Assembly: GCA_021817875.1 (NCBI GenBank)
Contig: JAKAFQ010000120.1
Coordinates: 1 to 9,977 of the forward strand
Length of the DNA stretch: 9,977 nt
From: Pseudomonadota bacterium
GTDB lineage: Bacteria > Pseudomonadota > Gammaproteobacteria > Steroidobacterales > Steroidobacteraceae
Reading direction: 5' to 3'
The position numbers and the translations under genes are program-made. Within the stretch, counting starts at the first letter, position 1. Each line of letters opens with the position of its first letter. Positions 1 to 9,977 of this stretch are shown one piece after another. The notes under the pieces are model-generated. The model saw nothing but the letters and a program-made list of their open reading frames with translations, searched no databases and had not been told where the DNA came from.

Positions 1-170
1 AGTTCATTCAGGTTGCCCGGCACGAAGGTGCTGCAGACCTTCTCCCCGGTGTCGGGAGCGGCGGTCAGCCTGTCGAAATGCGCGGCCATCATGGCCTTCT
101 GTTTGCGCATGGAGGCGTCTTTCTGCACCTCCTGCGGCGCCACGTTCTTCTGCACGGCCGTCGTATTCAT
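1..170 (-). CDS. bcrB: Benzoyl-CoA reductase subunit B (class I), N-terminal part, cut by window edge
   Basis: Only the first 56 residues are visible; the gene runs off the left edge. The start ATG (170-168) overlaps the bcrC stop as ATGA, which implies translational coupling and settles the start. The peptide has a charged N-terminus, then a segment KQKAMMAAHFDRL and, near residues 40-56, GEKVCSTFVPGNLNE. From my knowledge of the family, an STFVPGNLNE-type segment is typical of the N-terminus of BcrB/BadE-type subunits of the 2-hydroxyacyl-CoA dehydratase superfamily. BcrB and BcrC together form the half of the enzyme that binds benzoyl-CoA and carries an Fe-S cluster. The BcrA/BcrD half, which hydrolyses ATP and activates electrons, is expected further left, outside the window. 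The direct position after bcrC fits the bcrCBAD order known from Thauera. Confidence 0.88.
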   Translation of the reverse strand, partial: MNTTAVQKNVAPQEVQKDASMRKQKAMMAAHFDRLTAAPDTGEKVCSTFVPGNLNE

Positions 171-1354
171 TGCGCGCTCCACAGTTTGATCGAATCGGCG
201 AAGGTGCCGGCCTGTTCGCGGATCGGTTGCATCTGCCCGAAGTTCTCCGAGTACTTGAAGGCCACGTACGGTATCCCGGCCTCCTGCAGCACCCGCTGCT
301 GCATCGGCCGGTCGAGCAGCGCCGGATCGCAGAAGCTCGGCGAGGCGAACACCACACCCTCGGCCTTTGTGCGGCGGACGGCCCGCACCAGGTGCTGACC
401 TTTCTCGCGCTGATCCGGCTCGTATCGCGCCGCGGTCGATTCGGAATGGTGCAGGAAGGCGAGCGCGAGGCTGCGCAGCGGATCTCCTTCGGTCGGCACG
501 TCCTGCGTCAGCCAGCGGGTCACCAGCAGCAGGTCGTCGTCGACGACATAGCAGCCGGCGAGCTCCAGCGACTTGATGAGGTTCAGCGGCGGTTGCTCGC
601 AGAACACCCCGGTGAGCACGACCCGGCAGTTGTCGCGCCGCGGTCGCTCGACGGCTGCCGCAGCGGCGAGGTAGTCGCGGATCAGCTGCGAATGCTGCTC
701 GACCGGCAGAACGAGTCCGGCCCGCATCAGCAGGTACACCTCGGTGGCCGGCGCCTGCCACGGCTGGGTCGCGCGGTACTCGTACAGTTGTCTCACCAGG
801 CGGCGATTTTCGTTGTAGAGCGCGATCGAGTCGCGCAGCTGTTCGTCGGTGACCGGCGCGCCGCGCAGGTTGCTCAGCGCTTCGCGCAGTTCCTCCAGCT
901 CGCTGACGTAGTAGTTTCCGCCGATGGCGTCCCGGTAGTTCTGCGGCACGTCGAAGTAACGGCTGTAGACCTGCGGATACATCATCTTCCACATGCCGGA
1001 GAGATTGCGGATCACGTCGCAGATCGACGGGAACAGCATGCCGTCGACGAAGTCAAGGCGCCCGGAGGCCGCCAGGTCGATCGTCGAGCGCGGTATGCGG
1101 CAGATGTAGCTCTGATAATAGGCATCGCCGTGGATCACATCGAGCTGATCGCCGCCGCCGAGGATTCCGAGCGGCAGCATCCCCGCCGCGTGGATCAGTT
1201 CGCGCGGGACGTAGATCGGCATGTAGCCGATGACTTTGCGTCCCGGCTTGGCGCTTTTCCATTCCCGCGCGGAGGAGAAGTTGAGATCCTCGTACAGCGC
1301 GGTCGCCCGCGCGACGATGGTGCCGACGTCTATCATGCTCAGCGGTGTTCCCAT
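167..1354 (-). CDS. bcrC: Benzoyl-CoA reductase subunit C (class I, ATP-dependent)
   Basis: A 395-residue cytoplasmic protein of the 2-hydroxyacyl-CoA dehydratase D / benzoyl-CoA reductase family, close to the roughly 385 residues of Thauera BcrC. The enzyme reduces benzoyl-CoA to cyclohexa-1,5-diene-1-carbonyl-CoA with two electrons from ferredoxin, driven by ATP. Family-like segments seen are ALYEDLNF (19-26), KPGRKVIGYMPIYVPRELIH (36-55), GGGDQLDVIHGDAYYQSYIC (66-85), FPSICDVIRNLSGMWK (108-123), CEQPPLNLIKS (252-262) and QMQPIREQAGTFADSIKLWS near the C-terminus. Six cysteines (85, 112, 243, 252, 268, 342) include the likely cluster ligands; which ones bind is not decided here. Start choice: ATG 1354 has AGAGG 8 nt upstream but overlaps dch by 16 nt. 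ATG 1336 (residue 7, MIDVG) lies 2 nt after the dch stop and fits the homologue's N-terminus better. It ends in a 4-nt overlap with bcrB. Confidence 0.93.
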   Translation of the reverse strand: MGTPLSMIDVGTIVARATALYEDLNFSSAREWKSAKPGRKVIGYMPIYVPRELIHAAGMLPLGILGGGDQLDVIHGDAYYQSYICRIPRSTIDLAASGRLDFVDGMLFPSICDVIRNLSGMWKMMYPQVYSRYFDVPQNYRDAIGGNYYVSELEELREALSNLRGAPVTDEQLRDSIALYNENRRLVRQLYEYRATQPWQAPATEVYLLMRAGLVLPVEQHSQLIRDYLAAAAAVERPRRDNCRVVLTGVFCEQPPLNLIKSLELAGCYVVDDDLLLVTRWLTQDVPTEGDPLRSLALAFLHHSESTAARYEPDQREKGQHLVRAVRRTKAEGVVFASPSFCDPALLDRPMQQRVLQEAGIPYVAFKYSENFGQMQPIREQAGTFADSIKLWSAQ

Positions 1355-2103
1355 TGGGGTGGCCTCTTGGCGAGAAACGCCTCTAAACCTTCGGTTGCGT
1401 CGCGGCTGTTCATCAGCCCGTCCAGGTAGAGCCGCTCGACCTGGGCGAGGCGCGTGTTGATCCGCGTCGTGAAATCGTGTCTTGCTGCCCGCACGGCGTA
1501 ACGCAGCGAGCTCGCGCTTTTTGGCAGCAGATGTTCGGTGGCATAGGCGCGGGCGGCGTCTGCGGGCCTGTCGTGCGCCTGATGCGCCAGGCCGATGGCC
1601 GCGGCCTCCTGCCCCGAGAGGCTCCGGCCCGAGAGCAGCAGATCGGCCGCGCGTGACGGGCCGATCAGCTCAGGCAGCAGGCAGGAAGCGGCCGGTGCAA
1701 ACACCCCGAGCCGGATCTCCGGCTGGCCGAGCTCGGCATCGGGCGCGACGAACAGCAGGTGGCCGGACAGGGCGAGCTCGAGGCCCGCTCCGAGGCACTT
1801 GCCGTGCGCCGCGACCAGCACGGGCACGTCCGAGGCGACGATCATCCCGATCAGGCGATGCAGCGCGGTCAGCATGGCGGCGCACTGGTCGGGCAGATGC
1901 TCCGCGACGCTCGCGCCGAAGCTGAAGCTCGGCCCTTCGGCATCGATCAGAATGGCGCTGAGGGCGGCGGGCACGGGGCGCGCGAACGCCGCTTCGAGCG
2001 CCGCGATCATCTCGGCGTCGATCAGGTTCGCCTTCGGGCGCGCCAGATGCAGCCGCATCAGCCGCTCACCGGCCTCGAAATGCACTTCGAGCGGCGCACT
2101 CAT
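1339..2103 (-). CDS. dch: Cyclohexa-1,5-diene-1-carbonyl-CoA hydratase (crotonase family)
   Basis: A 254-residue enoyl-CoA hydratase/isomerase. It adds water to the dienoyl-CoA product of benzoyl-CoA reductase, giving 6-hydroxycyclohex-1-ene-1-carbonyl-CoA. Crotonase elements are clear: RPKANLIDAEMI (22-33), first oxyanion-hole segment FSFGASVAEHLPD (60-72), and second segment GKCLGAGLELALSG (101-114). These are followed by a substrate-pocket stretch AELGQPEIRLGVFAPAASCL (123-142). The FSFGASV...HLPDQCA and GQPEIRLGVFAPAASCLLP strings match my memory of Thauera Dch and separate it from ordinary beta-oxidation hydratases. The start ATG at 2103 overlaps the oah stop as ATGA. The frame stays open upstream inside oah, but a longer start is unlikely because of that coupling and because the shorter protein has the family length. 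Had (the next dehydrogenase in the pathway) is not beside it. Confidence 0.92.
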   Translation of the reverse strand: MSAPLEVHFEAGERLMRLHLARPKANLIDAEMIAALEAAFARPVPAALSAILIDAEGPSFSFGASVAEHLPDQCAAMLTALHRLIGMIVASDVPVLVAAHGKCLGAGLELALSGHLLFVAPDAELGQPEIRLGVFAPAASCLLPELIGPSRAADLLLSGRSLSGQEAAAIGLAHQAHDRPADAARAYATEHLLPKSASSLRYAVRAARHDFTTRINTRLAQVERLYLDGLMNSRDATEGLEAFLAKRPPQWEHR

Positions 2104-3269
2104 GCCCGGCGGGCCCCCGGCTGAATGCTCTCGGTCAGGGCGTCGTCCCAGGGTGCGTTGACGGCAAGCGCCTGCCGCAGACCGATGAAGTCGATCTCCC
2201 GGCCGGTTTCCTTGGTGCCCTCGTTGAAGGCGCGGAATCCGGCGCGTGCCTCGGTCACCATGTTGAGCGCGAGCCAGGCGCGCGAGTTTTCCTTGTTCCT
2301 GTTCCAGGAATCGAGCTTCGGCTTGCGCAGCTCCTCGAGCGTCTTGGTCGTGCAGTCCGGGAACATGTACAGCAGCTTGGTGCACAGCTCATCGACTTTC
2401 CGATCGAGCAGCGACAGATCGACGCTGCCCCGCGCGAGCAGCGCCCGGGCGGCGCCGAGCTCCGAGGTGTCCTTGGTCTTGCCGAACACGATGCGCCCGT
2501 ACTGGTCGTGAGTCCGCTGGGTGTTGACCAGCGGATTGGCGATGAATTCGCCGTCGACCTTGAGCGCCGGAACGATGTCGGTGAGCATGCCGATGGCGTA
2601 CGCTTCGTGCGCGGAGAACGGCTCGCACAGCACACCGGCGGCCATCGCCCGCTCGACGCCGACGAGGACGGGCAGAAAGTCCGTGCTGCCGCCGATCGGG
2701 GCCGAGCCGTGCTTCGGGCCCGCCTGGCCGAAGCGCGCCAGATCCTGCGCGATGCTGAAATCGCAGGCCATGCCGATTTCCTGACCGCCGCCGATGCGCA
2801 TGCCGTTGACGCGGCAGACGACCGGTTTGTCGCAGCCGAGAATCGAACTCACCATGTCGTTGAACAGCCGCATGTAAGCGCGATATTCCGGTGGCCGGCC
2901 GGCGTAGTACTCGGCATACTCCTTGGTGTTGCCGCCGGTGCAGAATGCCTTGTCGCCGGATCCGGTGAATACCACAGCCACCACATCGCGCGCGGCGCTG
3001 GCGGCCCGGAAGGCCAGGATCACTCCCTTGACCATCTCCGTCGTGTAGGAATTGAGCTGGCTCGGGTTGTCGAGCGTGATCCATGCGTTGTACAGGCCGG
3101 AGACCGGCTTGCCGTCGCGGTCGCGCGCCGGGCGCTTCTCGTAAAGGACACCCCGGCTGATCCCGGCGCTCACCTCTTCGGATACCAATGTGTGACTCAC
3201 TGCGTCCGATGAGTGGATTTTGCTGGTATCGGTCATCTTGATGTGGTCTCCCGGCCGGATATCACCCAT
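2100..3269 (-). CDS. oah: 6-oxocyclohex-1-ene-1-carbonyl-CoA hydrolase (ring opening)
   Basis: A crotonase-superfamily protein of 389 residues, much longer than normal hydratases (about 260), as expected for Oah/BamA. It hydrates and then hydrolytically opens the alicyclic ring of 6-oxocyclohex-1-ene-1-carbonyl-CoA to 3-hydroxypimeloyl-CoA. Visible segments are LYNAWITLDNPSQLNSYTTE (59-78), first oxyanion segment AFCTGGNTKEYAEYYAGRP (108-126), second segment RVNGMRIGGGQEIGMACDFS (153-172), and RFGQAGPKHGSAPIGGSTDF (179-198), which is characteristic of the BamA/Oah family. It is the first gene of the minus-strand operon and overlaps dch by 4 nt. Two starts are plausible. ATG 3269 has GGAGG and AGGGGGA upstream. 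ATG 3236 (residue 12, MTDTS) has GGGAGA 10 nt upstream and gives 378 residues, nearly the 377 I recall for the Thauera enzyme. The longer start is listed; the shorter may be the true one. Confidence 0.94.
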   Translation of the reverse strand: MGDIRPGDHIKMTDTSKIHSSDAVSHTLVSEEVSAGISRGVLYEKRPARDRDGKPVSGLYNAWITLDNPSQLNSYTTEMVKGVILAFRAASAARDVVAVVFTGSGDKAFCTGGNTKEYAEYYAGRPPEYRAYMRLFNDMVSSILGCDKPVVCRVNGMRIGGGQEIGMACDFSIAQDLARFGQAGPKHGSAPIGGSTDFLPVLVGVERAMAAGVLCEPFSAHEAYAIGMLTDIVPALKVDGEFIANPLVNTQRTHDQYGRIVFGKTKDTSELGAARALLARGSVDLSLLDRKVDELCTKLLYMFPDCTTKTLEELRKPKLDSWNRNKENSRAWLALNMVTEARAGFRAFNEGTKETGREIDFIGLRQALAVNAPWDDALTESIQPGARRA

Positions 3270-3302
3270 GGATTCCCCCTGCCTCCGTACGGTCCGGAGC
3301 AG

Positions 3303-3322
3303 GGTATTGCGGTATTACGGTA
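3303..3322. repeat. Tandem 8-bp direct repeats upstream of oah
   Basis: The plus strand reads GGTA, then TTGCGGTA (3307-3314), then TTACGGTA (3315-3322): a truncated copy followed by two full copies differing by one base. The last copy is the first half of operator element A. TTACGGTA recurs at 3436-3443 near the rightward promoter and TACGGTA again at 3450-3456. The repeats lie just downstream of the inferred oah transcription start, where extra regulator subunits could bind. No function is proven. Confidence 0.5.
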
Positions 3323-3332
3323 CCAGAGTACC
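3315..3332. promoter_or_regulatory. Candidate operator A (oah side)
   Basis: The element reads TTACGGTACCAGAGTACC. It contains the perfect 5-bp inverted repeat GGTAC-CAGA-GTACC (3319-3332... arms 3319/3320-3323 and 3328-3332) and matches element B at 3436-3453 at 14 of 18 positions, by direct comparison. It covers the candidate -10 hexamer of the leftward promoter, so a bound protein would be expected to repress oah-dch-bcr transcription. A regulator gene is not in the window, so the binding family is unknown. Confidence 0.55.
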
Positions 3333-3353
3333 CCTTTGTGAGCCATGCGTCAA
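3325..3353 (-). promoter_or_regulatory. Candidate promoter for the oah-dch-bcrCB operon
   Basis: On the minus strand TTGACG (3353-3348) is followed after 17 nt by TACTCT (3330-3325). The -35 matches the sigma70 consensus at five of six positions; the -10 is weak (three of six), typical of an activated or regulated promoter. The -10 lies inside operator A. The predicted leader to the oah start at 3269 is about 50 nt. Inferred from motif and position only. Confidence 0.42.
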
Positions 3354-3413
3354 CCGGCGTCGACTGAGATCGTGAAACGTTCTGCCCGGCCCGGATTGCG
3401 CGTCGCAGCCACA

Positions 3414-3442
3414 TTGACAGGACCCGCGGAGCATTTTACGGT
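3414..3442 (+). promoter_or_regulatory. Candidate promoter for the molybdoenzyme gene (padB)
   Basis: A perfect -35 TTGACA (3414-3419) is followed after 17 nt by TACGGT (3437-3442), a weak -10 that begins operator B. Better -10-like hexamers, TATTAT (3442) and TATAGT (3445), occur nearby but at spacings of 22 and 25 nt, too long for this -35. The inferred leader is about 28 nt to the ATG at 3477, which has only a weak AGAG ribosome-binding site 6 nt upstream. Confidence 0.45.
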
Positions 3443-3453
3443 ATTATAGTACG
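3436..3453. promoter_or_regulatory. Candidate operator B (padB side)
   Basis: The element reads TTACGGTATTATAGTACG. Its core GTATTATAGTAC (3441-3452) is an imperfect palindrome (10 of 12 positions symmetric). It matches element A at 14 of 18 positions and overlaps the -10 region of the rightward promoter. Another TACGGTA copy follows at 3450-3456. The same element sits on both divergent promoters, which suggests co-regulation of ring cleavage and the molybdoenzyme by one factor. Confidence 0.55.
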
Positions 3454-3476
3454 GTAATGCCAGTTTAGAGCCGTCT

Positions 3477-6209
3477 ATGAACGAAACATCTGCGTCTCGG
3501 CTCGTCCCGACCTACTGCTACAACTGCGTGGCGGGTCCGGACCTGCTGACGGTCAAGGTCGACGACGGCGTCGCGGTGGAGATCGGCCCGAATTTCGCCG
3601 GCAAGGGCATCCACCCCGGCGACGGCAGGCCGTGTGTCAAGGCGTATGGTCTCATTCAGAAGACCTACCACCCGGCACGGATCGTCACCCCCATGCGTCG
3701 CACCAATCCGCGCAAGGGCCGCAATGAAGACCCCGGCTTCGTGCCCATCTCCTGGGACGAGGCGCTCGATATCGTCGCCGGAAAGCTCGCCTCGATCCGT
3801 GAGCGCGGCCTCACCGATGAATCGGGCATGCCGCGGGTCGCGGTGACCTTCGGTCACGGCGGCACGCCGTCGAACTACATGGGCTCCTTCCCCGCCTTCC
3901 TGGCCGCCTTCGGGCCGGTCGACTTCAGCTTCGGGTCGGGCCAGGGTGTGAAGTGCGTGCATTCGGAGCACTTGTACGGCGAGTACTGGCACCGCGCGTT
4001 CACCGTGGCTGCCGATACACCCTTCACCGATTACATCGTCTCCTTCGGCGCCAACAACGAGGTCACTGGCGGAGTCAGCGCGGCGGCGCGGCACGCGGCG
4101 GCGCGGGCACGCGGCGCAAAGCGCGTGCAGATCGAGCCGCACCTGTCGATTTCCGGTGCCGCGTCCGCCGAATGGATTCCGATCAAGCCGAAGACCGACC
4201 CGGCGTTCATGTTCGCGATGATCCACGTGCTGTTGCACGAACAGCCGCGCTCGAAGCTCGATACGGCCTTCCTCACCGATACGACTTCCTCACCCTACCT
4301 CGTGGGACCGCACGGCTACTATCTGCGTGATCCGGCGAGTCTGAAGCCGCTTCTGTGGGACACGCGCCGCGGCGCCGCGGTGCCGTATGACACGGACGGT
4401 GCGCAGCCCCTGCTCGAGGGCAGTGTACAGGTGGCTGCGGCCGTGGAAATCGGCGCCGATGAGCAGCGCTGGAGCCATGCGGACCTGCCCGCCCGGACCG
4501 CGTTCACCCATCTCGTCGAGCACATGCGCCAGTACACACCGGAGTGGGCGGCCGAGATCTGCGAGGTGCCGGCCGCCAGGATCCGCAGGGTGGCCAACGA
4601 GTACCTGAGTCACGCGCGCGTCGGAGAGACGATGGAGGTCGACGGGCAGACGATGCCCTTCAGGCCGGTCGCGGTGACTCTCGGCAAGACGGTGAACAAC
4701 GGCTGGGGCGCCTATGAGTGTGTCTGGTCGCGCACCGTGCTCGCCGTGCTGGTCGGGGCTCTCGAGGTGCCGGGCGGCACCCTCGGCACGACGGTTCGCA
4801 TCAACAAGTTCCACGACAACCGGCACAAGAGCGTCGTTCCCGGAGACGACGGCTTCATGCAGCACACGCTCAACCCGACCGATCGGGCGCACTGGCAGAA
4901 GACTCCGCAGGTGCGCAACGGCCATCGGACGCTGGTACCGCTGTCGGGGGGCAACGGCGCATGGAGCCAGTCGCTGGGCCCGACGCACCTGGCGTGGCTG
5001 TTTCAGACCCACGTGGCGCAGAACTGGCCGCAGGCCACCAAGCCCGAGCTCTGGATCGCGTACCGCACCAATCCCGCCATCTCGTTCTGGGACACGCAGG
5101 CGATCGCCGAGACCATGGCCTCCTTTCCGTTCACGGTCTGCTTCGCCTACACGCCGGATGAAACCAACCACATGGCGGACATCCTGCTGCCGGAGGCGAC
5201 CGACCTCGAAAGCACGCAACTGATCCGTGTCGGCCGCACCAAGTACATCGAGCAGTTCTGGCGCCACGAAGGTTTCGCGCTGCGCCAGCCGGCGGTGGCG
5301 CCGCGCGGGGAAACGCGCGACTTCACCTGGATCGCAACCGAGCTTGCGCGCCGCACCGGCCTCATCGAAGCCTACAACGCGGCCATCAACCGCGGCTCGT
5401 GCGGCGTGCGGCTCAAGGGCGAAACATGGGACTTCTCGCTCTCGGTCGGCGAAGTGCACACGGTGGACGAAATCTGGAACGCGGTATGCCAGGCCGGAAG
5501 CGCGGAATTGACCGACGGCGGCGAAATTCACGATCTCGACTGGTTCAAGGCACATGGCTTCATGACCCGGCCGTTCCCGCAGGGCTCGTGGTATCTGTAT
5601 CCGACGTTGAAGCAGCTCGGACTGCGCTTCGAACTGCCTTACCAGGAACGGCTGATGCGCTCCGGGCAGGAGCTCGGTCATCGGCTCCATGAGAGCGGCA
5701 TCCATTGGTGGGATCGGCAGCTGTCCGAATACAGCCCGCTGCCGCAATGGCATGATTTCCCGAAGATCTGGGAGCAGGATCTGGTGGATCGCGGCTTCCG
5801 TCCGGAGGACTATCCGTTCTGGCTGATCACGACAAAGAGCATGCAGTACCATGCCGGCGGCAACGCGATGATCCAGCTGATGGACGAGCTGGCGCGCAAC
5901 GTCCGCGGCCATCGGGGTGTGGTGATCAATGCGGCGACGGCCGAGCGGCTCGGCATCGAGGACGGCGACCTGGTCGAGGTGCGCTCTCCGACGGGTACGA
6001 CCTCGGGCCCGGCGATCGTCGCTCAGGGCGTACGCCCCGACACGCTGGTCATCGTCGGTCAATTCGACCACTGGGCGACGCCGTACGCGAAGGACATGCA
6101 GGCGCCGAGCCTGAATACCATCGCACCGATGTCGATCGATCTGACGGACGCGACCGGCTCGGGAGCGGACCTGGTGCGGGTTGCACTGCGACGCCTGGCG
6201 GCGGCTTAG
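3477..6209 (+). CDS. padB: Molybdopterin oxidoreductase, probable phenylacetyl-CoA:acceptor oxidoreductase large subunit (PadB-like)
   Basis: A 910-residue protein of the DMSO reductase (Mo/W-bis-MGD) family. The proposed reaction is four-electron oxidation of phenylacetyl-CoA to phenylglyoxylate, feeding benzoyl-CoA. The N-terminus has C14-x2-C17 and C53, in YCYNCVAGPDLL and RPCVKAYGL. The usual third cysteine of the cluster motif is missing; D22 is a possible substitute. C160, in GQGVKCVHSEHL, is a candidate Mo ligand (inference). ILLPEATDLE (about 569-578) and the C-terminal dinucleotide-binding domain from about 781 (FWLITTK...GIEDGDLVEVRS) are standard for the family. There is no twin-arginine signal or membrane segment, so it is cytoplasmic. 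The PadB call rests on recalled N-terminal similarity and on the divergent benzoyl-CoA operon. It is somewhat larger than the roughly 93-kDa subunit reported for Thauera. PadC- and PadD-type partners are absent. Other members, such as the dihydroxybenzoate or resorcinol hydroxylase type, remain possible. Confidence 0.72.
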   Translation: MNETSASRLVPTYCYNCVAGPDLLTVKVDDGVAVEIGPNFAGKGIHPGDGRPCVKAYGLIQKTYHPARIVTPMRRTNPRKGRNEDPGFVPISWDEALDIVAGKLASIRERGLTDESGMPRVAVTFGHGGTPSNYMGSFPAFLAAFGPVDFSFGSGQGVKCVHSEHLYGEYWHRAFTVAADTPFTDYIVSFGANNEVTGGVSAAARHAAARARGAKRVQIEPHLSISGAASAEWIPIKPKTDPAFMFAMIHVLLHEQPRSKLDTAFLTDTTSSPYLVGPHGYYLRDPASLKPLLWDTRRGAAVPYDTDGAQPLLEGSVQVAAAVEIGADEQRWSHADLPARTAFTHLVEHMRQYTPEWAAEICEVPAARIRRVANEYLSHARVGETMEVDGQTMPFRPVAVTLGKTVNNGWGAYECVWSRTVLAVLVGALEVPGGTLGTTVRINKFHDNRHKSVVPGDDGFMQHTLNPTDRAHWQKTPQVRNGHRTLVPLSGGNGAWSQSLGPTHLAWLFQTHVAQNWPQATKPELWIAYRTNPAISFWDTQAIAETMASFPFTVCFAYTPDETNHMADILLPEATDLESTQLIRVGRTKYIEQFWRHEGFALRQPAVAPRGETRDFTWIATELARRTGLIEAYNAAINRGSCGVRLKGETWDFSLSVGEVHTVDEIWNAVCQAGSAELTDGGEIHDLDWFKAHGFMTRPFPQGSWYLYPTLKQLGLRFELPYQERLMRSGQELGHRLHESGIHWWDRQLSEYSPLPQWHDFPKIWEQDLVDRGFRPEDYPFWLITTKSMQYHAGGNAMIQLMDELARNVRGHRGVVINAATAERLGIEDGDLVEVRSPTGTTSGPAIVAQGVRPDTLVIVGQFDHWATPYAKDMQAPSLNTIAPMSIDLTDATGSGADLVRVALRRLAAA

Positions 6210-6252
6210 CGCGAAGCCTGCGGCATGAGGCCGTCACGCCCGGGACAGGTAG

Positions 6253-6258
6253 TATGAT
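6253..6258 (+). promoter_or_regulatory. Weak -10-like hexamer upstream of qhpG
   Basis: TATGAT (five of six matches to TATAAT) lies 38 nt before the qhpG start in the 87-bp gap after padB. No -35 is seen at the proper distance. Known qhp operons are controlled by an AraC-type activator (QhpR), so an activator-dependent promoter without a -35 is possible. Read-through from padB cannot be excluded because no clear terminator stem is seen in the gap. Confidence 0.2.
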
Positions 6259-6296
6259 CGGCCGGGCCGCTGTGGCGTGAGCTTCGGGATTCGTCA

Positions 6297-7637
6297 ATGA
6301 AGTCCAGTGCGCAAATTGCGGTCCTGGGTGCCGGCCCCGCCGCCGTCGCCACCGCGTGCGGTCTGCGCCGGCTCGGCCATGACGTGGTATTGATCGGCAT
6401 GTGCCGCAACGCGGCCGTCGAAGGCATGTCGGAACGCACTGTGGCGCTGTTGCGCGAACATGGCCTGGTGGCCGCCGCCGAGCGCGTGCGCGGCCCGGGT
6501 GAGCGTGTAGGCCTGTGGGCGGGCGCCGAGCTCGCCGGAAGCCGGGAGTACCTGGCGGATCGCGCCGAGCTCGACCCGGCGCTGCTCAGCGACGCCGTCG
6601 GCAGTGGAGTCACCGTTCGCAAAGAGCGTTCGCTGGGCTATGAGCTCCTCGGGACGGACTGGCGGGTACGGACGGAGCACGGGGAGGTGCGCTGCCGCGT
6701 GGTCATCGATGCGCGGGGCCGGCGCGCGCAGCGGACAGTGCGCAGGGGTCCTGAGCTGATTTCCGTTTGCCAGCGGTTTCGCAACCGGCATGCCGGCAGG
6801 TTGGTCACCCGAATCGAGGCCGTCCCGCAGGGATGGTGCTGGCTGGCGACGAGCCGGGGCATGAGCTGGCTTCAGGTGACCTCGTCGCGCGCGGAACCCT
6901 CGCTTCGCTCCGGGCTCGCGCAGCATCTGGCGCGGCTTCTCGGCGGTGCGCCGCAGATGGCTGCGCTCCTGGCGGATGCGACAGCGGACAGTGCCCCGGT
7001 GGCGCGGGCGGCGACGGCAACGCTGTCCGAGGATCGGCACCTCCCGGGTGTGCTTCGCGCCGGAGACGCCGCGCTCGCCCTCGACCCGCTGTCCGGGCAG
7101 GGCGTGTACGAAGCCCTGAGGTCAGCCCACGTCGCGACCGCGGCGGCGCACACCTTTCTGGCCACCGGGCAGTGGGAGCTGATCGAGCGATTCATCGGGG
7201 AGCGGCTGCTGGAGCTTTGGCAGCGCAGAAATGCCACCGCGGCGGAACATTACCTGCGCCAGGCGCGCATCACGCCGTCCGCCTTCTGGAGCCAGGCCGC
7301 GTCGCACTATCAGTCCCTGCGGCCCGAGCGCAGCGCCGGCCCGCCCGGCGCTCGCATCGAGTGGCGTCCGGTGCTCGATGGCCTGCTCATCCGGATGCGC
7401 CGTGTGGTTGTCACGGCGCAGGCCCCCCGGGGCGTCTGGCAGGTCGAGACGGTCGATCTGCCCGAGTTGCTGGACGTTCTGGGATTGGTACACATGGATA
7501 TTGAGCGTGCCGCGCGGCATCTTTCTCGGCCCGCAGCGGCGGTGGAGCAGGCGCTGAGGTGGCTGCAGGGGCAGGGAGTGGCATGGGGCGGTGGGGGCTT
7601 GCCGGGGCAGGGTAGCGGTAGGACGGGTGCGGAATGA
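6297..7637 (+). CDS. qhpG: Flavoprotein monooxygenase for quinohemoprotein amine dehydrogenase maturation
   Basis: A 446-residue FAD enzyme of the p-hydroxybenzoate hydroxylase/halogenase-like fold. The dinucleotide-binding motif GAGPAA is at 11-16, right after a short N-terminus that supports this start. The second FAD motif GDAALALDPLSGQGVYEAL is at 256-274. A C-terminal region (about 375-428) looks like a small helical or winged-helix extension. In Paracoccus denitrificans, QhpG hydroxylates the tryptophan of the small subunit QhpC to start formation of cysteine tryptophylquinone. The identification here relies on adjacency: its stop overlaps the qhpA start by 4 nt, and qhpD follows. Without that context it would be only a FAD-dependent oxidoreductase. 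The ribosome-binding site is weak. The last 25 residues (GGGG and glycine-rich) are encoded by an unusually G-rich stretch and may be non-conserved tail. Confidence 0.82.
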   Translation: MKSSAQIAVLGAGPAAVATACGLRRLGHDVVLIGMCRNAAVEGMSERTVALLREHGLVAAAERVRGPGERVGLWAGAELAGSREYLADRAELDPALLSDAVGSGVTVRKERSLGYELLGTDWRVRTEHGEVRCRVVIDARGRRAQRTVRRGPELISVCQRFRNRHAGRLVTRIEAVPQGWCWLATSRGMSWLQVTSSRAEPSLRSGLAQHLARLLGGAPQMAALLADATADSAPVARAATATLSEDRHLPGVLRAGDAALALDPLSGQGVYEALRSAHVATAAAHTFLATGQWELIERFIGERLLELWQRRNATAAEHYLRQARITPSAFWSQAASHYQSLRPERSAGPPGARIEWRPVLDGLLIRMRRVVVTAQAPRGVWQVETVDLPELLDVLGLVHMDIERAARHLSRPAAAVEQALRWLQGQGVAWGGGGLPGQGSGRTGAE

Positions 7638-8990
7638 TGATGAGAGCCAAGGGGTCACGAGGGTCAAAGAGCATGCGGTGGAAAATCTCTTCGGCGTTGC
7701 CGGTGTGGATGGGTTTGGCGGTGCTGGTGAGCGGGGCACTGGGGCTGGGGCGTGCGGCGCTTGGGGCGGTTCGCGGTGGGGGGCGGAGCGCGGGTCTGGC
7801 TGCGGGGCTGGCGGCGGTGAGGATGCACTGCTCGGGGTGTCACCGTGAGGGGCCGGCGGGGCATTTCGATCGGATCAGCGAGGAGCGCAAGAGCCCGGAA
7901 GGCTGGGCGATGACGATTTTCCGGATGCGCCATGTTCACGGGGTGGTGCTGAGCAGCGCCGAGCAGGGGCTGATCATTCAGTACCTGAGCGAGGTTCAGG
8001 GGCTGGCGCCCTCGGAGACGCGCGCGGGGCGGTTTGCGCTGGAGCGGCGGGCGAACATGCCGGATATGAAGCTGCCGGACAACCTGCACCAGATGTGCGG
8101 TCGGTGTCACAGTCTGGCGCGAGTGGCGCTGCAGCGGCGCAGTGCGTCGGAGTGGCTGAAGCTGATTAATTTTCACGTTGGGCAGTTTCCGACGCTGGAG
8201 TATCAGGACGGGAGCCGTGACATTCACTGGTGGAAGATTGCCAGCACGCAGCTGCCCGGGGAGCTGGCGAAGCTGTTTCCGCTGCACAGTGCGGCGTGGA
8301 GGCAGTGGCAGGCTCGGCGGCCGGCGGACCTGGCGGGGCGGTGGATTGTGCGTGGGGAGACGGCGTGGCGCGGGCCGTATTACGGCACGGCGAGCATCCG
8401 TCGGGTGGGCTGGCAGCGGTATCGGGCGCGCTACGTGCTGCATTATGTGAACGGTGAGCGGCTGAGCGGGGGCTCGGATGCGCTGGTGTACACGGGGTTT
8501 GAGTGGCGTGGGACCGGCACTCTGGGGGGCCGTGCGGTGCACGAGGTGTACTTTGCCTCTGCGGATGGGCGGCGGATCAGTGGGCGGTGGTTTTGGGCGG
8601 ATCATTCCGAGCTGGGCGGGCAGTGGGTGGCGCAGCGTGCCGGTGGTGCGGCGCGAGTGCTGGCGGTGCTGCCGCGAGCGCTGAAGGTAGGCACGAGGCA
8701 GCGGGTGATTGTGCTGGGTCGTGGGCTGAGCGGGAAGGTGGATCTGGGGCCTGGGACGAGTGTGCGGGTGGTGCGGCGTGCGGCCTATGGGCTGGTGCTG
8801 AGCGTGCGGGTGGCCGGGGATGCGGTGGCGGGGTACCGTGAGGTGCGGGTCGGTGGGCTGAGCGGGGGGGATCTGCTGGTGGTGTACCGGCATGTGGATC
8901 GGGTGCAGGTCGAGCCTGCGCTGGCGATTGCGCGGCTCGGTGGCGGGACGCTCTTGCCGGTGGATGCGCAATTTCGTGCGATTGGCTATA
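7550..8990 (+). other. G-rich, C-poor compositional segment
   Basis: From the end of qhpG to about codon 450 of qhpA the coding strand is strongly G-skewed, with GGG, GTG, CGG/CGT and CTG codons in place of GGC, GTC, CGC and CTC. Hand counts: 7561-7620 has 35 G and 10 C; 8701-8760 has 32 G and 9 C; 9061-9120, in the same gene, has 20 G and 24 C; 7141-7200 in qhpG has 23 G and 18 C. The boundaries look sharp, near 7550 and 8990, and do not coincide with gene ends. The cause is unknown. Confidence 0.75.
7585..7612 (+). other. Canonical G-quadruplex motif before qhpA
   Basis: Four G-runs of 4, 5, 4 and 3 are separated by loops CGGT, CTTGCC and CA, satisfying the common G3+N1-7 pattern on the coding strand and hence in mRNA. 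It ends 21 nt before the qhpA start codon, within the qhpG 3' end. A further GGGG-CA-GGG lies just upstream (7568-7576). It could affect qhpA translation or read-through; this is inference. Confidence 0.5.
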
Positions 8991-9298
8991 CGGATGTGCG
9001 TGCGGCCGACGGCCAGCGCACGGCGGTGTCGCTCGGAGCGGTGCCGGTGAGCTGGAGCGTGCAGCCGTTCAACGCCGAGGCGGCCCGACGCGGTGACATC
9101 CGCTTTGCCGGCCGGCTCACCGGGCAGGGGCGGTTTCTGCCGGCGGTGGGCGGACCGGATCCGAAGCGGCCGTTTTCGGCCGACAACACCGGGGATCTGT
9201 CCGTCGTGGCGACCCATCGGGCGCGGCACGGCGCGGTGGTGGGCAAGGCGCACCTGATCGTGACGGTGCAGCGTTGGGTCAATCCACCGATCTACTGA
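7634..9298 (+). CDS. qhpA: Quinohemoprotein amine dehydrogenase alpha subunit (dihaem cytochrome c)
   Basis: A 554-residue exported subunit of the periplasmic amine dehydrogenase. It takes electrons from the cysteine tryptophylquinone of the small subunit and passes them through two c-type haems. After a basic N-terminus, residues about 20-45 form a Sec-type signal with a probable cleavage at ALGA (42-45). Haem motifs are CSGCH (66-70) and CGRCH (155-159). The remaining residues form the beta domains typical of this subunit, with segments such as GRWIVRGETAWRGPYYGTA (235-253) and GRWFWADHSELGGQW (317-331) and a C-terminal Ig-like domain from about 427. The mature length fits the roughly 490 residues known in Pseudomonas putida and Paracoccus. 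The start lies in ATGATGATGA: three consecutive ATGs (7634, 7637, 7640) overlapping the qhpG stop; ATG 7673 (M14) is an alternative closer to the signal peptide. Codon use shifts abruptly near residue 450. The substrate is a primary amine, possibly 2-phenylethylamine given the neighbours. Confidence 0.93.
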   Translation: MMMRAKGSRGSKSMRWKISSALPVWMGLAVLVSGALGLGRAALGAVRGGGRSAGLAAGLAAVRMHCSGCHREGPAGHFDRISEERKSPEGWAMTIFRMRHVHGVVLSSAEQGLIIQYLSEVQGLAPSETRAGRFALERRANMPDMKLPDNLHQMCGRCHSLARVALQRRSASEWLKLINFHVGQFPTLEYQDGSRDIHWWKIASTQLPGELAKLFPLHSAAWRQWQARRPADLAGRWIVRGETAWRGPYYGTASIRRVGWQRYRARYVLHYVNGERLSGGSDALVYTGFEWRGTGTLGGRAVHEVYFASADGRRISGRWFWADHSELGGQWVAQRAGGAARVLAVLPRALKVGTRQRVIVLGRGLSGKVDLGPGTSVRVVRRAAYGLVLSVRVAGDAVAGYREVRVGGLSGGDLLVVYRHVDRVQVEPALAIARLGGGTLLPVDAQFRAIGYTDVRAADGQRTAVSLGAVPVSWSVQPFNAEAARRGDIRFAGRLTGQGRFLPAVGGPDPKRPFSADNTGDLSVVATHRARHGAVVGKAHLIVTVQRWVNPPIY

Positions 9299-9309
9299 GC
9301 GGGTGCACC

Positions 9310-9977
9310 GTGATCTTCGATACTGCAAATGCTCACATCGTTGACTGTGGCGAGCGCACGATGCTGCTGCACGTGCCGACCACGGCGCTGTTCGAGCTCG
9401 ATGCGCTCGGCGCGGAGGTGCTGCGGCTGGTGCGGGCGGACGCGACGCTCGATGCCGCGGGCATTGCCGGCGCGCTGACCGCCCGGTTCCCGGGCGAGCA
9501 GGTGAGCGCATGCCTCGATAAGCTGCTGCGCCTGGAAGTGCTGCGGGCCGATGGAGCCAGCCGGCCGATCAACCCCTCGGGGGTGCACATCGAGGCCTAT
9601 CCGCTCAGCACCATCGTGTTGAACGTCAACACCGGATGCAATCTGGCCTGCCGCTATTGCTACAAGGAGGATCTGGCCGTGCCGGCCGAGGGCAAGCGCA
9701 TGAGCATGGAGGTGGCGGCGCGCAGCGTCGATCTGCTGCTCTCGCAGGGCCGGCAGCGGCCGCGGGTCGGCATCGTGTTCTTCGGCGGCGAGCCGCTGAG
9801 CAACATGCCGCTGATCCGTCAGGTGGTCGATTACGCCGAGGCCGAGGCCGGCCGGCTCGGCAAGGCGGTGGACTTTTCCCTGACCACCAACGCGACGCTG
9901 CTCACCGAGGAGCTCATCGGGTATTTCGATGCGCACCGCTTCGGGCTGTCGGTCAGCATCGACGGGCCCCAGGCCGT
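9310..9977 (+). CDS. qhpD: Radical SAM/SPASM maturase of quinohemoprotein amine dehydrogenase, N-terminal part
   Basis: The first 222 residues of a gene cut by the right edge. It starts with GTG, 11 nt after the qhpA stop. ATG 9361 (M18) is the next in-frame option, but the earlier start keeps the conserved-looking segment HVPTTALFELDALG (21-34). Residues about 1-90 form a small N-terminal domain, probably a peptide-recognition winged helix as in other RiPP-type maturases (inference). The radical SAM core follows: C110-x3-C114-x2-C117 binds the [4Fe-4S] cluster, with FFGGEP (157-162), TTNAT (192-196) and SIDGP (216-220). In Paracoccus, QhpD forms the intrapeptidyl cysteine-to-Asp/Glu thioether cross-links in QhpC while complexed with it. 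The SPASM region, qhpC and the remaining genes are expected to the right. Codon use is normal here, unlike most of qhpA. Confidence 0.92.
   Translation, partial: MIFDTANAHIVDCGERTMLLHVPTTALFELDALGAEVLRLVRADATLDAAGIAGALTARFPGEQVSACLDKLLRLEVLRADGASRPINPSGVHIEAYPLSTIVLNVNTGCNLACRYCYKEDLAVPAEGKRMSMEVAARSVDLLLSQGRQRPRVGIVFFGGEPLSNMPLIRQVVDYAEAEAGRLGKAVDFSLTTNATLLTEELIGYFDAHRFGLSVSIDGPQA

Follow-up and report, generated by a model that had tools for sequence, protein, structure and literature searches.

According to PMC6678401, the regulators specific to anaerobic benzoate catabolism that have so far been described are few; the same source gives the operators of BzdR and BoxR (Azoarcus/Aromatoleum) as TGCA-N6-TGCA repeats. 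For MbdR (TetR family, 3-methylbenzoate) the operator ATAC-N10-GTAT is given in PMC4424350. BadM, the Rrf2 repressor of badDEFGAB in Rhodopseudomonas palustris, binds in gel shifts a fragment of the badD promoter that spans -191 to +21, and the BadM-DNA complex is released by 10 mM acetamidobenzoate (PMC6191541). A survey from 2024 reports BadM only in alphaproteobacterial contexts (PMC10803450). In the literature covered, neither the sequence of a BadM operator nor a BadM regulon outside the Alphaproteobacteria was met; a footprint may be printed in Hirakawa 2015 or in Peres and Harwood 2006, both outside this coverage. A text search of the literature for four operator core strings returned three unrelated Francisella papers.

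The locus described here carries two related palindromes, O1 and O2, which are very probably the operators of a BadM-type repressor of the Rrf2 family. This reading is settled by comparison with other loci rather than by the pair alone. BadM, missing from the list of candidates in an earlier sequence-only reading of the same DNA, is, on these comparative grounds, the regulator that fits.

Layout of the divergent locus and its two palindromes

The window, i.e. the whole stretch of 9,977 bp that was analysed, contains the following genes.

167..1354, minus strand: bcrC, benzoyl-CoA reductase subunit C (TIGR02263, 678 bits, cut-off 421)
1339..2103, minus strand: dch, cyclohexa-1,5-dienecarbonyl-CoA hydratase (TIGR03189, 334 bits, cut-off 292.5; scanned as 1339-2130, with the ATG likely at 2103)
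2100..3269, minus strand: oah, 6-oxocyclohex-1-ene-1-carbonyl-CoA hydrolase (TIGR03200, 624 bits, cut-off 464)
3477..6209, plus strand: molybdopterin oxidoreductase (PF00384, PF01568), probably PadB-like (phenylacetyl-CoA:acceptor oxidoreductase, name inferred)
6297..7637, plus strand: qhpG, flavin monooxygenase of quinohemoprotein amine dehydrogenase maturation (NF049967, 317 bits, cut-off 240)
7634..9298, plus strand: qhpA, quinohemoprotein amine dehydrogenase alpha subunit (TIGR03908, 542 bits, cut-off 274)
9274..9977, plus strand: qhpD, radical-SAM maturase running past the window end (TIGR03906, 259 bits, cut-off 453)

The qhpD score falls below its cut-off because the gene is cut and only the N-terminal half is present. 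No regulator gene was found among the seven window proteins scanned. The molybdoenzyme matches no NCBIfam model above that model's cut-off; it is 81% identical to its orthologues in loci L001 and L109 (likewise 81% in L001 and genome G002), and the L109 orthologue adjoins genes for PaaK, an FlK-type thioesterase, a 4Fe-4S protein and an NrfD-like protein. These orthologues and neighbours are the grounds on which the enzyme is probably best read as PadB-like. The PadB-like gene is followed directly by qhpG, qhpA and qhpD (3477-9977), an apparent module from aromatic amine to benzoyl-CoA beside bcr. Such a route leads from an aromatic amine, e.g. phenylethylamine, via phenylacetyl-CoA to benzoyl-CoA, and the plus-strand unit looks like this route, its product being the substrate of the minus-strand unit. 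The divergent layout makes sense in this respect, as one repressor would control both units jointly.

The two units are separated by an intergenic region of 207 bp (3270-3476), between oah on the minus strand and the molybdoenzyme gene on the plus strand, in and around which these elements were read.

3311..3332, minus strand: operator O1, GGTACTCTGGTACCGTAATACC towards oah (plus strand GGTATTACGGTACCAGAGTACC); the second-highest matrix score of the window (31.9)
3440..3461, plus strand: operator O2, GGTATTATAGTACGGTAATGCC towards the molybdoenzyme gene; matrix score 42.8, best in the window
3303..3310, plus strand: extra outer half-site GGTATTGC, 8 bp beyond O1, seen as a direct repeat; matrix score only 7.1 for 3303-3324
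3348..3353, minus strand: candidate -35 TTGACG of the oah promoter, 17 nt from TACTCT; read from the sequence
3325..3330, minus strand: candidate -10 TACTCT of the oah promoter, within O1; 3/6 to TATAAT
3414..3419, plus strand: candidate -35 TTGACA of the molybdoenzyme promoter, 17-nt spacer; read from the sequence
3437..3442, plus strand: candidate -10 TACGGT of the molybdoenzyme promoter, overlapping the left edge of O2; 3/6 to TATAAT

The operator unit is a 22-bp palindrome (11-0-11) with the consensus RGTATTNNRGTACYNNAATRCY, a GTAC centre and the outer arms GGTATT/AATACC. O1 and O2 each deviate from it at one position (for O1, one of the 18 specified), and O2 ends 15 bp 5' of the molybdoenzyme ATG. 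The sequence-only reading had recognized a shared 18-mer, which is indeed present as TTACGGTACCAGAGTACC at 3315-3332 and as TTACGGTATTATAGTACG at 3436-3453 with 14/18 identical positions, and a 13-mer on minus 3323-3311 and plus 3449-3461, which is there too and represents the other side of the same palindrome. As a unit the 18-mer has given way to the 22-bp palindrome, positions outside it being conserved. The IUPAC pattern formulated at that time, 17 letters and a dash, gave no match at up to three mismatches when the dash was searched as N; the dash is thus a separator only. The outward promoters proposed, TTGAC(A/G) with a 17-nt spacer, can be read in the sequence (TTGACG-17-TACTCT, minus 3353-3325; TTGACA-17-TACGGT, plus 3414-3442) but have weak -10 hexamers, and a promoter scan of 3200-3560 listed none. 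O1 covers the candidate -10 of the promoter of oah-dch-bcr and O2 overlaps the edge of the candidate molybdoenzyme -10, a placement that fits a repressor. The half-site at 3303..3310 is a possible weak accessory site.

Each read towards its own gene, O1 and O2 are identical at 17/22 positions. This is also the best identity of any 22-mer between the two intergenic halves, and the maximum in 60 mononucleotide shuffles was 16, so the pair alone is weak and barely above chance.

The palindrome in related loci

A scan of genome contigs for Oah gave at least 80 loci, of which 80 were analysed. In many of these 80 listed loci GGTA-N6-TACC is found just upstream of had, oah or a divergent korA. When all 4-bp palindromic half-sites with gaps of 0-12 in intergenic DNA were counted blind, GGTA-N6-TACC occurred in 32 regions of the oah loci versus 3.2 in shuffled sequence, the FNR box also being among the strongest. 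The same count in badM loci brought out the FNR box, AGTA-N6-TACT (9 versus 0.2) and GGTA-N6-TACC (12 versus 1.0), the other leading palindromes of both sets being mostly TCGA-, GATC- or GC-rich; in seven paralogous Rrf2 loci, GGTA- and AGTA-type sites were not among the twelve palindromes listed. GGTA-N6-TACC (14 bp) was rejected as the whole site, as an outer arm is paired with an inner one in 105 of 111 strict instances (duplicates included). The pattern of the sequence-only reading itself had few close matches upstream in the 80 listed loci.

The strict form RGTAYN4RTACY occurs in the 80 listed oah loci at 61 intergenic sites in 313,695 bp versus three genic sites in 951,424 bp (p=2e-33), and the 61 sites are spread over 38 loci. 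The palindrome is thereby present at equivalent promoters in 38 loci besides that of the window. The genes after the 61 sites are korA (32), had (30), GNAT (12), hemerythrin (11), oah (2) and the molybdoenzyme gene (1, L001), divergent sites being counted for both genes and overlapping palindromes apart. A second palindrome (at most one mismatch) lies at offset +8 or -8 in 19 and 17 cases, and at all other offsets in 4 in total. L001-L003 have two operators each before had/korA.

Among 83 oriented sites, which have AT-rich flanks, position 18 is T in 83/83, though positions 14-21 were not selected on. These sites represent 74 distinct operators, from which a symmetrical matrix of 34 columns was built with the window excluded. 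In the 9,977 bp scanned, this matrix scores O2 at 42.8 and O1 at 31.9, with the third place at 7.1, and the maximum in 5000 shuffles was 17.9. At a score of at least 15, the 80 listed oah loci hold 118 intergenic places versus one genic (training sites included), and of the 42 loci that have no strict intergenic site, 29 show a matrix match all the same. A matrix from badM-locus sites only gives 41.4 for O2 and 28.0 for O1; in cross-training, whose counts are free of training sites, 40/41 (with this matrix) and 31/31 held-out sites score at least 15. The looser GGTAYN4RTACC gave 13 versus 11, 2 versus 2, 7 versus 0 and 11 versus 0 matches versus control in four whole genomes, and is too loose for two of the four, many of its matches lying inside genes.

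The commonest place of a -35 is TTGAC at -40 from the operator centre, found in 9 of at most 81 operator-gene pairs, too few to fix a single -35 geometry. Gene calls in the relatives come from a home-made codon model and some starts are wrong: the true start of the L001 molybdoenzyme gene probably lies some 42 bp inside the called one, and in L230, L231 and L241 a site lies just inside the called gene start.

A probable BadM-type regulator and the competing explanations

In the L001 cluster an Rrf2 gene comes after a GNAT gene. Among solved structures, those nearest to the encoded regulator are Rrf2 proteins, and four BadM-type proteins scanned have NCBIfam scores far below the cut-offs for IscR, NsrR, CymR and RirA. 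With the L001 protein as query, one strong match (best E at most 1e-29) was obtained in 23/24 and 43/50 genomes, together 66/74; the next matches begin at 6.5e-15 in the set of 24, and the set of 50 was listed to 1e-15. With 74 of the 80 genomes covered, a BadM-type Rrf2 was not found in those of L053, L006, L026, L035, L039, L047, L060 and L075. A matrix match is present in 60/66 loci from genomes with BadM versus 2/8 from genomes without it (p=1.2e-4). The exact pattern RGTATWNNNGTACYNNWWTR was found in 27/34 genomes with BadM versus 1/8 without, in 42 genomes picked by the analyst from the 74 with all eight BadM-negative ones included; these gave 77 strand matches, in which symmetrical sites may count twice, versus three of the reversed control. 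In 296 Xanthobacteraceae genomes the exact pattern shows no overall enrichment (18 matches versus 27 of the reversed control), while split by BadM it occurs in 6/29 genomes with and 11/267 without the regulator (p=0.003), and in four of those six within about 1 kb of badM.

Of 53 badM loci, 23 carry a strict site no further than 1.1 kb upstream of the gene (mean 0.05 and maximum 1 in 200 shuffles) and 30 carry none there; for paralogous Rrf2 genes the count is 0/7 loci. In many relatives BadM is probably a repressor of its own operon as well, acting through the same site.

Exceptions were noted in both directions. Strong operators are present at L006 8694 and L047 4815, the genomes of which yielded no BadM match, perhaps owing to incomplete assemblies. 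Six of the 66 loci with BadM lack a matrix match: L011 (14.9, just under 15), L065, L031, L038, L042 and L061. What the gammaproteobacterial L031, L038, L042 and L061 show before oah are half-like sites only (AGTATAGTAC or AGTATAATAC, ATAATACCACTT); exact sites do occur in other parts of the L031 and L038 genomes. In L053 (Thauera aminoaromatica), oah/bcr and the molybdoenzyme family are present, but no BadM match and no operator were found, and another regulator presumably serves there.

The connection to R. palustris comes from three Rhodopseudomonas-like genomes with badDEFGAB-like genes and an adjoining Rrf2 gene, to whose product the Rrf2 proteins considered here are 49-52% identical. The gene order is alike, the Rrf2 gene often coming after a GNAT gene here just as badM comes after badL in the R. 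palustris system. In 3/3 of these genomes the highest-scoring matrix site within 20 kb is found just upstream of badD, shortly after an FNR/AadR-type box, with scores of 32.4, 30.6 and 28.4 (0/5000 shuffles each), although the genomes were not in training. It deviates from the consensus at 4 of the 18 specified positions, and neither a strict site in the 20 kb nor an exact match was found in any of the three. In L210 the site occupies -95 to -74 relative to the called ATG, and in 3/3 genomes it falls within the stretch corresponding to the -191..+21 fragment bound by BadM. A second match (22-24) precedes an ABC-transporter-like gene (L209 15693-15714, L210 15725-15746, L211 15708-15729). Genes like those of 4-hydroxybenzoyl-CoA reductase lie nearby, and this match could mark a second target of BadM.

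Co-occurrence is no proof, and the palindrome could belong to another regulator that travels with anaerobic aromatic genes, BadM merely residing in the same clusters. The sites in L006 and L047 would agree with this, as would the other regulators encoded in these loci, e.g. a putative protein in L031, L038, L042 and L061 which we take to be XRE/BzdR-like. It is nevertheless an unlikely explanation in view of the strict sites upstream of badM itself, the matrix site within the counterpart of the BadM-bound fragment, and the joint absence of BadM and site from L053. Considerably less probable is that BadM binds O1 and O2 as one long-range complex, by looping or with extra dimers via the half-site at 3303, instead of as two independent operators. 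The centres of O1 and O2 are 129 bp apart, about 12 helical turns, the extra half-site is in register and L001-L003 carry two operators each, features that would suit such a complex, whereas many relatives manage with a single site. That the likeness of O1 and O2 arose by chance, between two promoter stretches that are AT-richer than their GC-rich surroundings, is hardly credible, as their identity, only one position above the best shuffle, is accompanied by the same palindrome at equivalent promoters in other loci, its near confinement to intergenic DNA and a window score far beyond the shuffle maximum.

With O1 and O2 read as two BadM operators, a BadM dimer on each would block RNA polymerase at both divergent promoters when aromatic substrate is lacking. 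A ligand would release BadM (in R. palustris, acetamidobenzoates made by BadL), and release would turn on ring reduction and cleavage together with the phenylacetyl-CoA and amine oxidation module.

Reach of the proposed regulon and comparison with known systems

The prediction that one repressor controls both oah-dch-bcr and the molybdoenzyme gains support from L001 and G002, where the operator precedes had/korA and the molybdoenzyme orthologue. In G002 a site scoring 40.7 lies 34 bp before the molybdoenzyme gene, and the run of paaK, thioesterase, FeS and NrfD-like genes on the opposite strand has a site of its own (52.8). In G003 a site precedes paaK and the contig ends soon after. In both genomes hcr-like genes (4-hydroxybenzoyl-CoA reductase; NCBIfam matches in G003) are divergent from badL-badM across a site. 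Taken together, the relatives have the motif before had/oah and korA, and in other genomes before padB, paaK, hcr and badL-badM-like operons. In L079 (Magnetospirillum fulvum DSM 13234) a strict site separates a GNAT gene from a ligase-like gene. Twenty further stretches fetched for exact matches added pad-like genes (L239, L243), genes for an AMP-dependent ligase, an aldehyde:ferredoxin oxidoreductase, etf and a second HGD-D family gene, as well as thiolase-like and hemerythrin/GNAT genes; some of the matches lie inside genes or before unrelated genes, e.g. in L232 and L234. The operator is also present in records of Burkholderiaceae and Gammaproteobacteria. A hemerythrin-like gene is repeatedly found under the operator, often beside GNAT (L001 17678-18169, L030 18680-19180, L237 1965-2465, L242 2036-2539), a possible link to oxygen or iron sensing.

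Across Alpha-, Beta- and Gammaproteobacteria, BadM may be the master repressor of anaerobic aromatic catabolism, acting through one ancient 22-bp operator and joining ring reduction, 2-oxoacid:ferredoxin electron supply, 4-hydroxybenzoate, phenylacetate and here aromatic-amine oxidation in one regulon; we put this forward tentatively, at somewhat less than even chance. In the same reading, as BadL of R. palustris makes acetylated aromatic amines as BadM ligands, the amine dehydrogenase under O2 could consume the amine and also tune the inducer pool. The operator is nearly free of matches in coding DNA, which makes it useful for regulon prediction in uncultured denitrifiers and phototrophs; it puts forward a regulator for the had-oah-dch-bcr operons of BadM-encoding genomes, points to a predicted BadM site at badD, and predicts joint control of amine dehydrogenase and benzoyl-CoA reduction. 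The suggestion of a new regulon motif is partly right: BadM and its badD target were already known, while the operator, met nowhere in the literature covered, and its extension to regulons of Beta- and Gammaproteobacteria appear to be new.

The sequence-only reading had found no resemblance to known operators of benzoyl-CoA regulators, and for BzdR/BoxR this stands. TGCA does not occur in 3270-3476, which does not fit a BzdR/BoxR operator, and ATAC-N10-GTAT is absent there from both strands; in the intergenic region the LysR consensus and sigma-54 patterns do not fit. The FNR/AadR box TTGA-N6-TCAA, a self-complementary pattern, is absent from the window intergenic region also at up to two mismatches, and FNR boxes are strongly enriched in intergenic DNA of the related oah and badM loci. 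With BzdR/BoxR the present system shares repressor sites that overlie a benzoyl-CoA reductase operon promoter, and with MbdR a palindrome of similar size over the promoter of an anaerobic aromatic pathway. Within the Rrf2 family, NsrR, IscR, CymR and RsrR recognize dyads of about 22-26 bp per Rrf2 dimer, alike in size to the present operator and different in sequence. The closest system is BadM of R. palustris, with one operon in one alphaproteobacterium as its known target, whereas here the operator precedes had-oah-dch-bcr, korA, padB/paaK, hcr and others.
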